From an uncultured Prevotellaceae bacterium (GTDB taxonomy: Bacteria; Bacteroidota; Bacteroidia; Bacteroidales; Muribaculaceae), in the NCBI GenBank assembly GCA_900318345.1, contig ONKD01000004.1:118860-182859 (forward strand): 64,000 nt of DNA. The letters are read 5' to 3'. Both the position numbers and the translations under genes were made by a program. Below the pieces are notes generated by a model. The model did not search any database and was not told where the DNA came from. It saw nothing but the letters and a program-made list of their open reading frames with translations. Shown piece by piece: positions 3,904 through 63,928 of the stretch. Position 1 is the first letter of the stretch; each line of letters starts with the position of its first letter.

Positions 3904-3949
3904 GCGAGCTACGCTCGCAGGTTAAAGGTTAAAGGTTAGAGGTTAGAGG
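3904..3949 (+). repeat. Hairpin plus 7-nt tandem array, copy 2
   Basis: The hairpin GCGAGCTACGCTCGC (3904-3918) is followed by AG and four heptamers (GGTTAAA x2, GGTTAGA x2). It lies 20 nt after the peptidase stop codon, the same position relative to a gene end as copy 1. Confidence 0.85.
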
Positions 3950-20148: not shown

Positions 20149-20200
20149 GGTGAACCAACCTTGACAGATGCGCACCAAAACCTCTATTACAGAAAGCTTA

Positions 20201-20377
20201 CCGCTCTAACGAGCGGACAATTGAAACAAATTATTTAATAAATTAAATAAATATTTTAATTATTATAATTTTAATACAAAATTTGTCTTAATTTCCCGAA
20301 ACTTGGCGGCATTTCAGCCATTGAAGTAAACTTCATGGCCTTCGATTTGCTCAAGTTTTCCCGCTGGGTGGTGCGGG
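20201..20377 (-). repeat. Dispersed three-hairpin element, copy A
   Basis: On the minus strand, in order: hairpin CCCGC...GCGGG; GAAAACTTGAGCAAA; the hairpin CCATGAAGTTTACTTCAATGG; TGCCGCCAAGTTTCGGGAAATT; an AT-rich stretch; AATTTGTTTCAATT; the end hairpin CCGCTCGTTAGAGCGG. The same blocks, in the same order, appear on the plus strand at 44662-44817. It lies between two convergent genes. The end hairpin lacks a T-tract here. Confidence 0.8.
20271..20336 (-). CDS. Micro-ORF in dispersed element, copy A (21 residues, speculative)
   Basis: The ATG sits in the central hairpin of the element. The peptide begins MKFTSMAEMPPSFGK and ends QILY. Copy B (44701-44772) encodes MKFTSMAEVPPSFEK and ends IKNF. 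Shared frame and start suggest either a real peptide or simple conservation of the DNA hairpin. There is no clear ribosome-binding site, and translation is unproven. Confidence 0.25.
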   Translation of the reverse strand: MKFTSMAEMPPSFGKLRQILY

Positions 20378-33124: not shown

Positions 33125-34669
33125 ATGAGCAAAGAAAGAATATTGTGGGCCGACGATGAGATCGACCTGTTGAAGCCGCACATCCTGTTCCTGCAAAACA
33201 AGGGATATGAAGTGGAGACCGTCACCAACGGGCGCGATGCAATCGACGCGTTGACCAACCAGATTTTCAACCTCATCATCCTTGACGAGAACATGCCGGG
33301 CATCAGCGGACTCGAGGCCCTGCAGCGCATCAAGATCATGCAGCCCAATGTCCCCGTCATCATGATTACCAAGAGCGAGGAGGAAAACATCATGAACCAG
33401 GCCATCGGCAGCGAAATCGCCGATTACCTCATCAAGCCGGTCAACCCCATGCAAATCCTGCTGTCAATCAAGAAAAACCTGCACAGCGAGGCACTCATTG
33501 CCGAGAAAGTGACAGGCGACTACCAGCAGGAGTTCATGCGCATCGGCCAGATGATCAATTCGGCTCAGACGATCGACGACTGGTATGATCTCTACTCGAC
33601 GCTCGTGCGTTGGGAGCTCACCTTGTCAAACACCGACACCAATATGGATGAGTTGCTGCGCATGCAGAAGGTCGAGGCCAACAGCGCCTTCGCCAAGTTT
33701 GTCAAGCGCAACTATGAGGATTGGCTCACCAAGCCCGAGCACCCCCTGCGCAGCAATGAACTATTCAAGACCAAGGTGCTGCCGCTGCTCGACAAGGGCG
33801 AGAAGGTGTGCTTCGTCGTCATCGACAACTTCCGCCTGGACCAGTGGCGCACGGTAAGCCCGTTGCTCACCGATTACTTCAATGTCGAGAGCGAGGAGTT
33901 ATACACCACCATCCTGCCCACTGCGACCCAGTATGCCCGCAACGCCATCTTCTCGGGATTGATGCCCATGGACATCGAGCAGATGTTCCCCGACCTGTGG
34001 GTCGACGAGGAGAGCGAGGAGGGCAAGAACCTCAACGAGGCACCCCTCATCCAGACCTTGCTCGACCGCTATCGTCGCAAGGTGCATTTCTCTTACAACA
34101 AGATGAACGACAGTGCCGCTGGCGAGAAGTTGATGCAGAACTTCGGCATGTTCAAGAACTATGAACTCAATGTGCTGGTATTCAATTTTGTGGACATGCT
34201 CTCGCACGCCCGCACCGAGTCCAAGATGATTCGTGAGCTGGCCAACACCGACGAGGCCTACCGCTCCCTTACCGAGTCCTGGTTCAAGAACTCTAACGTG
34301 CTCGAGATCTTCAAGCTCATGGCCGACAATGGCTACAAGGTGGTGTTGACGACCGACCACGGCACCATCAAGGTGGACCGCCCCATCAATGTCATCGGCG
34401 ACAAGAACATCAACACCAACCTGCGTTACAAGGTGGGCAAGAGCCTCACCTACAATCCCAAGCAGGTCTATGAGATCAAGCAACCTAAGCGCGTGGGTCT
34501 GCCCGCTCCCAACATCTCGAGCACCTACATCTTTGCGATGAACCGCGACTTTTTTGCCTATCCCAATAACTACAACTACTACGTCTCCTATTACAACGAC
34601 ACGTTCCAGCACGGCGGCATCTCGATGGAAGAGATGCTCGTGCCCATCGTGACACTGTCACCCAAGTGA
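33125..34669 (+). CDS. porX: PorX: response regulator with PglZ phosphatase domain
   Basis: 514 residues. CheY-like receiver (1-120): acidic pocket in WADDE, phosphoacceptor D54 in ILDENMPG, T82 and K104 at the usual switch positions. A helical linker follows, then a PglZ domain (about 170-510) of the alkaline-phosphatase fold with zinc-ligand-type motifs (VVIDNFRLDQWR, FNFVDMLSH, TTDHG). In Porphyromonas, PorX pairs with the sensor kinase PorY and regulates T9SS function. Immediate neighbour of porW/sprE. No porY is seen in the window. Confidence 0.93.
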   Translation: MSKERILWADDEIDLLKPHILFLQNKGYEVETVTNGRDAIDALTNQIFNLIILDENMPGISGLEALQRIKIMQPNVPVIMITKSEEENIMNQAIGSEIADYLIKPVNPMQILLSIKKNLHSEALIAEKVTGDYQQEFMRIGQMINSAQTIDDWYDLYSTLVRWELTLSNTDTNMDELLRMQKVEANSAFAKFVKRNYEDWLTKPEHPLRSNELFKTKVLPLLDKGEKVCFVVIDNFRLDQWRTVSPLLTDYFNVESEELYTTILPTATQYARNAIFSGLMPMDIEQMFPDLWVDEESEEGKNLNEAPLIQTLLDRYRRKVHFSYNKMNDSAAGEKLMQNFGMFKNYELNVLVFNFVDMLSHARTESKMIRELANTDEAYRSLTESWFKNSNVLEIFKLMADNGYKVVLTTDHGTIKVDRPINVIGDKNINTNLRYKVGKSLTYNPKQVYEIKQPKRVGLPAPNISSTYIFAMNRDFFAYPNNYNYYVSYYNDTFQHGGISMEEMLVPIVTLSPK

Positions 34670-34674
34670 TTCAA

Positions 34675-34704
34675 GGTTAGAGGTTAGAGGTTAAAGGTTA
34701 GAGA
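34675..34704 (+). repeat. 7-nt tandem array, copy 3
   Basis: GGTTAGA x2, GGTTAAA, GGTTAGA and a degenerate unit, starting 6 nt after the porX stop. Same heptamer as at 2.7 and 3.9 kb, here without the GC-rich hairpin. Confidence 0.85.
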
Positions 34705-40636: not shown

Positions 40637-43309
40637 ATGAACACGACTAAAAAACTACTAATCACACTGCTGCTGGCGCTCACCACTGTGCTTACGGCTT
40701 TAGCCGGTTATGACACATTTTCTTATAATGGGATCAATTATATGATTTATTACACTGGCAATGGCAATAACGTAGTGGGTGATTCTGCCAAGGTGAGTAT
40801 CAACAGCGACTTCAGCGGTGTTGCAAATATTGCGTCTTCGGTCACCTATGAATACACCTTTATGTCTGGCCTAGATGCTGAAGGTAACCCCATTTTCACA
40901 ACCCGCATATTGACCGCCCCAGTCATTGCCATCACCAAATATGCGTTCCAGAATTGCAATGGCCTGACGGGAGTGACTATCCCCAACTCTGTCACCCAGA
41001 TTGGTGAGAGGGCCTTCGATGGTTGCCATAACCTGTCAAGCCTGAATATCGGCAATTCAATAGACTCTATCGGCAATTATGCTTTCCAAAATTGCGTGAA
41101 TCTGTCTAGTGTAGTTCTCCCGAACTCTGTCACTTCAATACCTAAAGGCTGTTTCTACAGTTGCTACAACCTCACGAGTTTAACCATCCCCAATTCCGTC
41201 ACCAAAATTGGTCCTAGAGCATTATTCCAATGCCGCAATCTGTCTAATGTAACCATCCCCAACTCTGTTACCGCTATTGGCGATAGTACGTTCTATGGCT
41301 GCGGCGGTTTGGAGAACGTAATGATTGGCAACGCTGTCACGTCAATACCACGTAGCTGTTTCTATGAGTGCAGCAGCCTGTCAAATGTAAACATACCCAA
41401 CTCCATCACCGCCATCGGTGACAAGGCGTTCTATAATTGCTCTAGCCTAACCAGCGTAAACATCCCGAACTCAGTTACAACCTTAGGTAATTTTACGTTC
41501 CAGGGTTGCACGGAACTGACGAGCGTGATGATTGGCAACGCTGTCACCACAATTGGTAATTATACGTTTTATGACTGCCGCAAATTGACTAGCATCAACA
41601 TTCCCAATTCAGTCATTTCTATCGGTTATTGCGCGTTCTATCGATGCTCTGACCTAGCCAACCTGACCATCGGTAACTCGGTTACTACCATCGGTGAACT
41701 TGCGTTCTATTTTTGCCAAAGCCTGAAGAGTGTCACTATTCCCGATGCCGTCATCAGCATACTTAAGGCAGCCTTCTATGAATGTGAGAACTTGGAAGAT
41801 GTGACTATTGGTAACTCCGTCACAACAATTGGTGAGAGTGCGTTCTCGTATTGCCGCACCTTGAAAAACATGGTCATTCCCAACTCAGTCACAACCATCG
41901 GACATGGCGCATTCTTTAATTGCTCAAGCATGACTAGTGTGACCATCGGTAACTCGGTTACCACCATTGGTAATAGTGCTTTTTTGGGTTGCAATAGCCT
42001 GACAAACGTGGAAATCCCTAATTCTGTCACTGAAATGGGCCAAAAGATTTTCTATAACTGCAGCAACCTCAGGAGCGTAATCCTCTCTAATTCCCTTACA
42101 GCAATCCCCTCTAGCTGCTTCGAGGGTTGCTATAGGTTGGAGAGCGTTGTCATCCCTGATCAGGTCACCAAAATCTGGGCTTTGGCATTTGCAGGCTGCC
42201 GAAACCTGTCAAGCGTGACGATTCCCAACTCGGTCACGACGATTGACAACAAAGCGTTCTATGACTGCAACTCGCTGATTAACATCACTTGTCTGGCAAC
42301 AACTCCGCCACGGTTCATTTACGATGAGAGTTTTGATGAACAATGCTATGAAACTGCAATCTTGTTCGTCCCTGTAGAATCAGTAAACGCTTATCATAAT
42401 GCCCCGATTTGGGAAAGATTCACCTATATCAAGCCCATCATCCCTGGTGACGTGAACGACGACGATTACGAGTACGTCCCCTTCGTGCGCGAGGGCGTGA
42501 AATGGGTCTACTCAATTGTGAACTATCGATATAATTATGTTGATCAAAACCCCGAGTTTTTATGTGAGAAAATTTATCGTACTCTTGAACTTAAAGGAGA
42601 TACTATCATTAACGGCAAGACCTATAAGGCGATGCACAAGTATAGTGGCAATTCCATCAACTGGGAGAACGACACGGTGCCCATCTATTTGAGGGAAGAG
42701 AATAAGATTGTATATGGTATAATTCCCGATCAATCATTTTACGAAGACTGTCCAATCTATAATTACTATTCTTCTGTTGACATGTTTAACTGTGAAGAAT
42801 TTTTACTTTATGATTTTCAGGATCCTGTTTCCTACTGGAGTGAATTGTTTGCTGAATACCCATTGTACTCATTATATGATATTACTCCATACCAACATCT
42901 TTATACCGATACAATCTCAATTGGAAACCATAAGGCAAAACGTTATGTGAACCAACTCTTTGAAGTTAGGGATTGGTATATAATTGAGGGAATTGGTATT
43001 GATGACATTTATAGCTACACATTGGGATTCTTTTTTCCTATGATAACAGGTGTCGGCGGTTTGGGTTTTGGTTTGAGCCATGTGATAGAGAACGGCAGGA
43101 TCATTTACAAGGGAATCCATTACATCCCTGGTGATGTGAATGGCGACGGTGAGGTCACTATCGCCGATGCCAACAGCGTGATTGATGTTGTCATCATGGG
43201 CGGCAACGCTGGCCATACCCGTGCACCCGCCGCCGACATGGACGGCAACGGAGAGGTTAATGTCACCGACTTGAACATCGTCATCGACTTGATCATAAAT
43301 GGTAATTAA
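40637..43309 (+). CDS. BspA-type leucine-rich repeat surface protein with C-terminal dockerin
   Basis: 890 residues. Signal peptide MNTTKKLLITLLLALTTVLTALAG. From about residue 100 to 570 there are some twenty 23-residue LRR_5 units of the form IPNSVTxIGxxAFxxCxxLxxV. An AT-richer region (about 620-810) of unknown fold follows. The C-terminus is a dockerin pair: GDVNGDGEVTIADANSVIDV and ADMDGNGEVNVTDLNIVIDL. BspA proteins mediate adhesion to host or bacterial partners. Expected at the cell surface. The repeats differ at DNA level, so this is not a recent expansion. Confidence 0.88.
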   Translation: MNTTKKLLITLLLALTTVLTALAGYDTFSYNGINYMIYYTGNGNNVVGDSAKVSINSDFSGVANIASSVTYEYTFMSGLDAEGNPIFTTRILTAPVIAITKYAFQNCNGLTGVTIPNSVTQIGERAFDGCHNLSSLNIGNSIDSIGNYAFQNCVNLSSVVLPNSVTSIPKGCFYSCYNLTSLTIPNSVTKIGPRALFQCRNLSNVTIPNSVTAIGDSTFYGCGGLENVMIGNAVTSIPRSCFYECSSLSNVNIPNSITAIGDKAFYNCSSLTSVNIPNSVTTLGNFTFQGCTELTSVMIGNAVTTIGNYTFYDCRKLTSINIPNSVISIGYCAFYRCSDLANLTIGNSVTTIGELAFYFCQSLKSVTIPDAVISILKAAFYECENLEDVTIGNSVTTIGESAFSYCRTLKNMVIPNSVTTIGHGAFFNCSSMTSVTIGNSVTTIGNSAFLGCNSLTNVEIPNSVTEMGQKIFYNCSNLRSVILSNSLTAIPSSCFEGCYRLESVVIPDQVTKIWALAFAGCRNLSSVTIPNSVTTIDNKAFYDCNSLINITCLATTPPRFIYDESFDEQCYETAILFVPVESVNAYHNAPIWERFTYIKPIIPGDVNDDDYEYVPFVREGVKWVYSIVNYRYNYVDQNPEFLCEKIYRTLELKGDTIINGKTYKAMHKYSGNSINWENDTVPIYLREENKIVYGIIPDQSFYEDCPIYNYYSSVDMFNCEEFLLYDFQDPVSYWSELFAEYPLYSLYDITPYQHLYTDTISIGNHKAKRYVNQLFEVRDWYIIEGIGIDDIYSYTLGFFFPMITGVGGLGFGLSHVIENGRIIYKGIHYIPGDVNGDGEVTIADANSVIDVVIMGGNAGHTRAPAADMDGNGEVNVTDLNIVIDLIINGN

Positions 43310-44604: not shown

Positions 44605-44661
44605 CATGAGCAAGAGATAGCTTCAAGAGACTGTGTCATAATTCAATGTCGCAATATTTAA

Positions 44662-44817
44662 CCGTGCTACGCACGGGAAAACTTGTGCAAACCAAAGGCC
44701 ATGAAGTTTACTTCAATGGCTGAGGTGCCGCCAAGTTTCGAGAAATTCATACAAATTATTAAAAATTTTTAACACAAAATTTGTTTTAATTTCCCGCTCG
44801 TTAGAGCGGTTTTTTTC
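44662..44817 (+). repeat. Dispersed three-hairpin element, copy B, ending in a terminator
   Basis: Begins with hairpin CCGTGC-TAC-GCACGG, then GAAAACTTGTGCAAA, the central hairpin CCATGAAGTTTACTTCAATGG, TGCCGCCAAGTTTCGAGAAATT, an AT-rich stretch, AATTTGTTTTAATTTCCCGC and the end hairpin CCGCTCGTTAGAGCGG (44794-44809) followed by seven or more T residues. Copy A has the same block order in inverted orientation. The end alone recurs at 56976-57006. The T-tract makes this copy a working intrinsic terminator, so the element could be a small RNA. Confidence 0.8.
44701..44772 (+). CDS. Micro-ORF in dispersed element, copy B (23 residues, speculative)
   Basis: The ATG is in the central hairpin. The peptide starts MKFTSMAEVPPSFEK and ends IIKNF. 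It is the counterpart of the 21-residue frame in copy A, sharing its first 15 residues except V/M and E/G. It ends in the AT-rich stretch before the terminal hairpin. Translation is unproven. Confidence 0.25.
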   Translation: MKFTSMAEVPPSFEKFIQIIKNF

Positions 44818-44953
44818 GGGCGAACCATTATGTCATACCCCCTCTCTTGATGGAGCCACGGGAAATGGTGACATGGCATGGATTTTGCATGAGGATATAA
44901 CATTATAGACATTTGTGCGTTTAGATAAAAAAGAAACCAAATTATATGACAAA

Positions 44954-49345: not shown

Positions 49346-49426
49346 AACTACGAATTAAGCTAATTAAACTAATTAGAAATAATAAATATGCGGATGCCAT
49401 TAGTGAAATTCGTGTAATTCGTAGTT
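49346..49426 (+). repeat. AATTCGTG-type palindrome, intergenic copy 4
   Basis: Perfect 12-nt terminal inverted repeats AACTACGAATTA (49346-49357) and TAATTCGTAGTT (49415-49426). In between are TAATTAAACTAATTAG, ATGCGGATGCC and GTGAAATTCGTG. It fills the gap between mutS and the U32 peptidase gene. Confidence 0.8.
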
Positions 49427-56940: not shown

Positions 56941-56975
56941 ACCTAACAAACAAAAAACAAATCAAAACATATATA

Positions 56976-57006
56976 ATTTGTTTTAATTTCCCGCCCGTCA
57001 GGGCGG
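56976..57006 (+). repeat. Dispersed element, partial copy C (3' end only)
   Basis: AATTTGTTTTAATTTCCCGC is identical to copy B, followed by hairpin CCGCCCGTCAGGGCGG (compare CCGCTCGTTAGAGCGG). The loop/stem changes keep the pairing. The upstream two-thirds of the element is missing here. Confidence 0.7.
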
Positions 57007-63790: not shown

Positions 63791-63871
63791 TCATTCCACA
63801 TTATAATATATAATTACCATCTAAAAGAACCGTCAGCCAATTCGCCGACAGCCAAGAGCGCGCCAGCCAAA

Positions 63872-63900
63872 AATTAGTATAATTCGTGTAATTCGTGGAC
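63872..63900 (+). repeat. AATTCGTG-type repeat, partial copy 5
   Basis: AATTAGTATAATTCGTGTAATTCGTGGAC. The last 12 bases match the end of copy 3 at 4.0 kb. Only one arm is present. Confidence 0.6.
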
Positions 63901-63928
63901 CCCTGTTTTCGTCAATGGGACACCCAAG

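Follow-up and report, generated by a model that had tools for sequence, protein, structure and literature searches.

A covarying structured repeat of Bacteroidales genomes nested in a probable IS1182-type MITE

Elements of the IS200/IS605 type carry a hairpin beside a short target, with similar sequence on both sides, and the attC sites of integrons are folded strands with bulges that come in arrays. The closest idea that we found in print is in the part of PMC6006769 considered here, where Bacteroidetes genes of TnpA_REP subclass 2.6 are flanked by atypical structures that lack GT[AG]G and have copies elsewhere in the genome. In the excerpts used here, PMC3733652 gives CGTC repeats in Bacteroidetes among other phyla, PMC4596501 a Porphyromonas gingivalis MITE with a minisatellite inside, and PMC8040213 thousands of candidate structured RNAs predicted for human microbiomes; copies of the inner repeat described below could be among them. 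The locus analysed here consists of an outer and an inner unit. We class the outer unit with the IS1182-type MITEs and treat the inner one as a REP-like variant outside any named family.

Two nested units in the window

The window is the whole stretch of DNA that was analysed, 64,000 nt of contig ONKD01000004.1. A repeat scan of the window paired 20280-20363 with 44674-44757 (84 nt, 90% identity) and 20200-20257 with 44753-44810 (58 nt, 76%), both as inverted repeats. An earlier note on this DNA had described the same ordered blocks at 44662-44817 (plus strand) and 20201-20377 (minus strand), and we found them at these places. Using the 156-nt block as a BLAST query against the host genome (G000; 3.17 Mb, 82 contigs), we obtained 58 match rows at E<=0.001, counting the query itself. 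The repeat at 44.66 kb and 20.2 kb is real, not an artefact, and stands far above chance. A structure-model search of the window returned two copies and none further up to E 1 (Table 1).

The blocks that the earlier note had joined into a single element with three hairpins are real, but they form two nested units, a division that the note had missed: the end hairpins belong to what appears to be an IS1182-type MITE, and the three-helix middle is a separate element. The 44-kb copy (44627-44845) has an intact left and a decayed right terminal inverted repeat (TIR), and the 20-kb copy has neither; by eye, the outer hairpin of the latter is a weak CCCGC/GCGGG pairing with an 8-nt loop. The end hairpin reported near 57 kb, CCGCCCGTCAGGGCGG, was also located (56991-57006), behind the box AATTTGTTTTAATTTC. 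Regarding the T-tract, it had been ascribed to copy B and belongs to the 44-kb copy only (44810-44816); by eye, a G+C hairpin with a T-run is seen at 44794-44816 and none at the 20-kb copy.

Table 1. Coordinates of the two nested units and their parts in the window
Feature	Position	Strand	Basis
MITE copy A, from left TIR to degenerate right TIR, structured repeat nested	44627-44845	+	layout as in 51 two-TIR host copies
Left terminal inverted repeat GAGACTGTGTCATAATT	44627-44643	+	exact GTGTCATAATT at 44633-44643
MITE end hairpin type A, CCGTGCTACGCACGG	44662-44676	+	sequence reading
Nested structured repeat of about 66 nt, copy A	44676-44741	+	model R1, 87.6 bits, E 2.2e-28; three helices recur in the minimum-energy fold
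Outer stem P1, 5' strand (partner 44732-44738)	44679-44685	+	covariation, fold
Outer stem P1, 3' strand	44732-44738	+	covariation, fold
Middle helix P2, 5' strand (partner 44724-44726)	44691-44693	+	3/3 pairs changed on both sides in both alignments
Inner hairpin P3, tetraloop and bulged A	44698-44720	+	7/9 pairs changed on both sides in alignment A1; fold
MITE internal box AATTTGTTTTAATTTC	44778-44793	+	sequence reading
MITE end hairpin type C, CCGCTCGTTAGAGCGG, then T-run 44810-44816	44794-44809	+	sequence reading
Degenerate right terminal inverted repeat	44827-44844	+	by-eye comparison with TIR of other copies
MITE copy B with nested repeat, without TIR	20201-20377	-	no TIR match within 2 mismatches at the ends
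Nested structured repeat, copy B	20296-20361	-	model R1, 78.7 bits, E 3.5e-25
Solo MITE end: box AATTTGTTTTAATTTC and hairpin CCGCCCGTCAGGGCGG (56991-57006)	56975-57006	+	repeat scan, sequence check

The window also holds other repeats. Units resembling ATTCGTGAAATTCGTG make up another dispersed repeat (1801-1893, 2789-2881, 49399-49426 and 63871-63901), which is partly palindromic (49346-49373 with 49399-49426). Short intergenic arrays of a TTAGAGG-like heptamer lie at 2674-2725, 3912-3949 and 34653-34704, and the heptamer also stands upstream of the MITE at locus L004. Besides, the stretch 40973-42268 is a coding repeat of 14 copies at 69-nt steps or multiples of these, and by eye it resembles a BspA-type leucine-rich repeat protein.

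The outer unit and its terminal inverted repeats

Many of the 30 host loci retrieved with the 156-nt BLAST share one outer frame, in which GAGG(G/C)TGTGTCATAATT is followed, after about 20 nt, by a hairpin, GAAATTNAAACAAATT and an AT-rich middle, and all of these then come again in mirror image. In the host genome we counted 103 exact copies of GTGTCATAATT (60 forward and 43 reverse; positions are listed for 100 of the 103) and 0 of the reversed control. The retrieved stretches contained 57 TIR pairs, from which 6 outer or false pairings were removed, leaving 51 two-TIR copies in the host genome. Since these copies are only 95-245 nt long, the MITE would have no coding capacity. No clear constant duplication of the target site was seen in the flanks of the 51 copies. 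By eye, there are at least six end types, each with its own 20-nt tag and hairpin and usable as left or right end; CCGCTC..GAGCGG and CCGCCC..GGGCGG, which the earlier note had compared with each other, are two of them.

Several host contigs terminate within sequence bearing the same TIR. A 101-nt piece of one such contig end gave matches in 70 of the 101 genus genomes, a count that takes in matches to the TIR part alone. Behind the TIR, several of the 20 loci retrieved with this piece hold an ORF of one transposase type. We analysed two of these ORFs with Pfam: the one at L453 has DUF772 and DDE_Tnp_1_6, and the shorter one at L463 has DUF772 alone. DUF772 plus DDE_Tnp_1_6 is the typical domain pair of IS1182. 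Because the TIR is common to the MITE and to an IS with this kind of transposase, the outer unit is, as judged from sequence, a MITE whose inverted repeats match those of an IS1182-type IS of the same genus. At two host loci (L079 on contig C77 and L024 on contig C45), a MITE copy contains a different IS end, CCTGTTTTCGTCA, and behind it lies, by eye, the apparent end of an IS4/IS1634-like transposase.

One could argue, as had been proposed for the whole repeat, that these units are portable bidirectional terminators, given the outward T-rich runs seen by eye at the end hairpins of some copies. Such runs, however, adjoin only part of the ends that belong to a single MITE end type, and the other end types examined have none; the nested repeat also lacks a T-run and, at parA, sits between the promoter and the start codon. 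We therefore consider a terminator very unlikely to be the main nature of the repeat.

The inner structured repeat and its distribution

The inner unit, of about 60-66 nt, reads GAAAACTTGTGCAAA..CCATGAAG.TTTA.CTTCAATGG..TGCCGCCAAGTTTC and is present in some MITEs and missing in others, at one place between the end hairpin and GAAATT. An alignment of 28 copies (A1, which omits near-duplicates and three matches, one of them false and two truncated) gave a fold composed of the outer stem P1 (7 bp), a bulged base, 2 bp, the helix P2 (3 bp) and the inner hairpin P3 with a bulged A. In A1, 97.4% of the 588 cells were paired, 14 of the 21 pairs had changed on both sides, and the covariation score was 0.452, compared with 0.156 when shuffled and at most 0.114 when slid. 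We built a second alignment (A4) without the model from 42 sequences, 41 of other genera and one row of the host genome (L203). Here, 96.0% of 672 cells were paired, 13 of the 16 tested pairs had changed on both sides and the score was 0.486 versus 0.146; these values refer to the 16 outer pairs, because the inner hairpin varies in length, and the rows lean towards pairing because they were found with model R1, while slid controls retain relatedness.

Folded singly, the window copy and L149 showed all three helices, and L154 showed P1 and P2 together with an inner hairpin that was less distinct. The inner part is a separate structured repeat with three covarying helices. The earlier note had staked its reading on further copies in the genome and on covariation in the stems, and both were found; the stems covary in the 28- and the 42-sequence alignments, in line with the selection on structure that it had suggested.

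As for the strand on which the fold acts, the sense and antisense strands of the window copy fold equally well. Among the pair types, 24 cells are G.T against 1194 Watson-Crick cells (about 2% G.T), and 10 are A.C. RNA families usually hold more G.T pairs than this. The excess of G.T over A.C fits one functional strand, and thus also an RNA. The upstream ORF lies on the same strand as the copy in 42 cases and on the opposite strand in 44, and the downstream ORF in 36 and 50, respectively (simple ORF calls, with some places counted twice), and these counts show no clear orientation preference relative to genes. Small RNAs, put forward by the earlier note as one possible nature of the family, fit poorly with copies in both orientations to genes and with so few G.T cells, and the small RNA and terminator readings of the repeat are the weaker ones.

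At gathering cut-offs of Rfam 15, the window gave tRNA only. When 12 loci were searched at relaxed E, the sole overlap with the element was GEBRO in L176, at chance level (17 bits versus a cut-off of 284.7, E 0.5). The structured repeat fits no Rfam family. A resemblance to the twister-sister ribozyme was dropped for want of any Rfam score. In the literature searched, by title and abstract opening, no paper describes the repeat, which may nevertheless be in print.

The 156-nt query matched 20 of 36 same-genus relatives and, weakly, 1 of 24 other genomes. Many of the matches in relatives cover the inner part only and lie outside MITEs, and some form head-to-tail pairs about 65 nt apart. The host genome has at least 53 copies of the structured repeat, including three units at 65-nt steps in contig C61. 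Flanks were read for 40 of the 53: 21 copies lie within MITE sequence (20 assigned by script from a MITE box or TIR, and the 20-kb window copy by eye) and 19 have no MITE box. The 21, with their one place between the end hairpin and the AT-rich box, are what a MITE with a structured middle would give, standalone middles being its debris. We regard this as extremely improbable as the whole account, in view of the 19 copies without a MITE box and of the copies that stand alone or in tandem in other genera, at parA and in viral-catalogue contigs; it is contradicted by genera whose standalone copies have no surrounding MITE sequence.

Model R1 matched 94 of 101 genomes of the genus and 41 of 393 genomes of the order (26 of 207 genera), and model R2 matched 3 of 395 genomes in a phylum sample, namely the host and two further genomes, both within the order. 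Copy numbers and absences at these three levels are bounds, because the filters were strict and the candidates scored per genome were limited to 51 (genus), 13 (order) and 12 (phylum sample). A pattern scan of named genomes found at least 118 stretches; among the 80 matches listed, titles such as Prevotella, Prevotellaceae, Bacteroidaceae, Muribaculaceae, Porphyromonadaceae and Bacteroidales occur, many sources are rumen or gut, and one is titled proteobacterium. With a similar pattern, viral-catalogue contigs gave 15 stretches, 15/15 with a model copy, and in the nine contigs inspected the copies lay between or overlapped ORFs, many of them phage-like by eye. A search of a plasmid collection in distant mode with one 121-nt query gave no match. 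At L105 and L139, near 1501-1572, a 526-aa ORF that looks SusD-like by eye reads in frame through the copy, which overlaps its start region.

Signs of mobility and comparison with known systems

By eye, one copy lies within another at L111 (G034) and L102 (G005). We then compared the parA promoter in 30 genus loci, of which 27 were anchored, 26 on promoter-like ..CTTTG.. followed by CGTGAAACA and one (G007) on CCGTGAAAC alone. The site was filled in 17 loci (15 at E<=1e-3, one at 0.019 and one relic at 0.034), with one to about five units, and the arrays place the repeat between the promoter and the start codon. The other 10 of the 27 had no model match at the site, seven of them being short and empty-looking and three (G032, the host G000 and G117) holding other sequence. 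G036 has one unit and G115 two, with flanks alike, and the extra unit of G115 is not a simple duplicate because its inner hairpin differs. Upstream of parA, loci L287-L315 also conserve TGTTCCACG and CGTGAAACA near the array insertion point; we presume that the two resemble parS half sites.

The position at parA, directly after promoter-like sequence, could also suit a cis-acting RNA (a leader, a riboswitch-like element or an mRNA stabiliser) transcribed as part of 5' or 3' regions and kept for its RNA fold, with dispersal as a by-product. Such a role would agree with the covarying three-helix fold and its conserved internal loops and with a copy (L098) that precedes a short ORF resembling a signal-peptide gene, and some riboswitches occur as tandem copies. 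We nonetheless hold this explanation to be unlikely, considering that copies stand in both orientations to genes with no downstream gene class in common, that the parA site is without a model match in 10 of the 27 anchored loci, that some copies overlap ORFs, that G.T pairs are few and that no Rfam family fits.

To examine the flanks, we kept 131 copies after removing duplicates, MITE-like flanks and loci without a genome assignment; 114 of them were not followed by another unit. On the right, AAA at a fixed three bases from P1 was present in 65 of the 114 copies, against a background of 4.9%, and missing in 49. The left foot is AAA in all 28 A1 rows and in 37 of the 42 A4 rows. In several other genera, the flanking repeat extends to CAAANATA, which we take to be the Bacteroidales -7 box TAnnTTTG read on the antisense strand. 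For copies with the right AAA, we compared the next four positions on the left and on the right, and agreement lay between 0.61 and 0.83 for the 36 copies of other genera and between 0.38 and 0.45 for the 29 of the own genus, where the flanking repeat is AAA only. As agreement in the own genus is limited to AAA, a target duplication would be short or absent. Over all pairs, agreement was 2.29 of 4 versus 1.50 permuted (0/2000), with a small excess within genomes (2.21; 9/2000). Another left/right comparison, in which 14 of 146 distinct copies were excluded as MITE-borne by a simple pattern, was likewise above permutation. The idea that each insertion copies P1 afresh from the target was not established, given the small excess within genomes and an own genus that agrees only at AAA. 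Near-identical copies in one genome mostly have the same P1 (G488).

The AAA flanks, the nested copies, the copies in viral-catalogue contigs and the filled and unfilled parA sites point to mobility. Of the natures suggested by the earlier note, that of mobile hairpin elements dispersed through the genome is supported, with many copies, matches across genus and order, and the occupancy of the parA site.

We searched for a mobilising gene among 372 ORFs beside the copies, and no group present in at least three loci looked like a recombinase by eye. Those that reached this number were the parA locus with its three genes (4 loci, of which two are one place), proteins of a leucine-rich-repeat-like kind (4 loci), a TonB-like protein (3 loci, of which two are one place) and a dockerin-like set (3 loci). 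The names are by eye, and the last three sets look like host surface proteins.

Insertion next to AAA beside a hairpin resembles the peel-and-paste of Y1 transposases. The element could then be REP-like and moved specifically by a Bacteroidetes TnpA_REP (subclass 2.6) or a subclass 1.2 Y1 transposase, in keeping with the structured repeats that the part of PMC6006769 considered here places beside subclass 2.6 genes, with further copies elsewhere. We judge this quite unlikely: the Y1 transposase family PF01797 occurs in 269 of the 393 order genomes, 20 of the 41 element-positive ones versus 249 of the 352 others, hence no positive association, and only 2 of 40 PF01797 loci, searched up to about 1.5 kb on each side, contained a copy, one of which seemingly interrupts the gene end. 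Tested three ways, a link to Y1 transposases found no support. In L271, the ORF at 158-781 encodes a Y1 transposase (NHVH, YIINQREHH) that resembles subclass 1.2 when compared with the motif table of PMC6006769, and it seems truncated by the element copy because the ORF ends where the copy begins.

Taking all of this together, the balance tips slightly towards a MITE of an IS1182-type IS carrying an unrelated mobile unit, which would be DNA-level, non-autonomous, REP-like and moved in trans by a putative enzyme. We infer that the inner repeat acts at the DNA level and is recognised as folded single-stranded DNA by the trans enzyme; this is favoured because G.T pairs are few, orientation preference is not clear, and copies occur in viral-catalogue contigs and overlap ORFs. 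The repeat strand would fold once single-stranded, and the enzyme supplied in trans would recognise the fold and join it beside a short target ending in AAA, which in several other genera would be CAAANATA. Successive insertions would produce head-to-tail arrays with n+1 target copies, and the MITE would offer the inner repeat a second route of travel. Because P1 is partly target and its 3' strand is complementary to the target, guide pairing would be possible. A bolder version, which is improbable in our view, is that these form an order-wide family of mobile DNA hairpins that fold by themselves, with an outer stem made up half of target and half of element; the element's 3' strand would pair with the target (CAAANATA or GAAACA) as an insertion guide, different guides would lead to different sites, often promoters, and the mobilising enzyme would belong to a class that is not known to be associated with repeats of this sort.

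The repeat is found in tens of copies in many genomes of the genus and in leaders, including that of parA, and it fits nothing in Rfam. It could serve to test how very small non-coding hairpins disperse when they bring no enzyme of their own. If the preferred reading is true, it would also account for a number of spurious ORFs and structured-RNA candidates of such genomes.

Compared with REP/BIME sequences and their TnpA_REP (RAYT), the inner unit is alike in being short, folded, dispersed, mostly intergenic and present in many copies, with a bulged stem, and, as a REP should be, it is a dispersed multi-copy imperfect palindrome. It differs in its length of about 66 nt, its three helices and its head-to-tail arrays with AAA between units, as well as in having no linked TnpA gene found (2 of 40 PF01797 loci with a copy). 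GT[AG]G or CGTC was found within the first ten bases in 0 of 28 (A1) and 0 of 42 (A4) sequences. The structures of PMC6006769, compared by the description in the part considered here, are likewise structured, dispersed, without GT[AG]G and from the same phylum, and yet 38 of the 40 PF01797 loci, most of them without a subclass assignment, have no copy of the inner unit.

Elements of IS200/IS605 and their hairpin relics also have a hairpin adjoining a short target; they are excised and joined as a single strand by a Y1 enzyme, whereas in the inner unit one hairpin is the whole element, and its enzyme is putative. Integron attC sites share with it the folded strand with bulges and the arrays. 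The attC cores GTTRRRY and RYYYAAC occur in 0 of 70 aligned copies, and the units of an array abut head to tail with no cassettes seen between them. Paired copies in viral-catalogue contigs flank ORFs resembling phage genes by eye, and a cassette idea built on these pairs was rejected, the ORFs between them looking like ordinary phage genes.

For the outer unit, the Porphyromonas gingivalis element of PMC4596501 is alike as a MITE with an internal repeat, from the same taxonomic order; by description only, its title names a minisatellite and not a covarying fold. MITEs of the IS1182 family are alike in that the TIR of the outer unit is that of an IS with a DUF772 and DDE_Tnp_1_6 transposase, and the outer unit stands apart from them with its six or more interchangeable end-hairpin types, as seen by eye, and the foreign repeat nested within.
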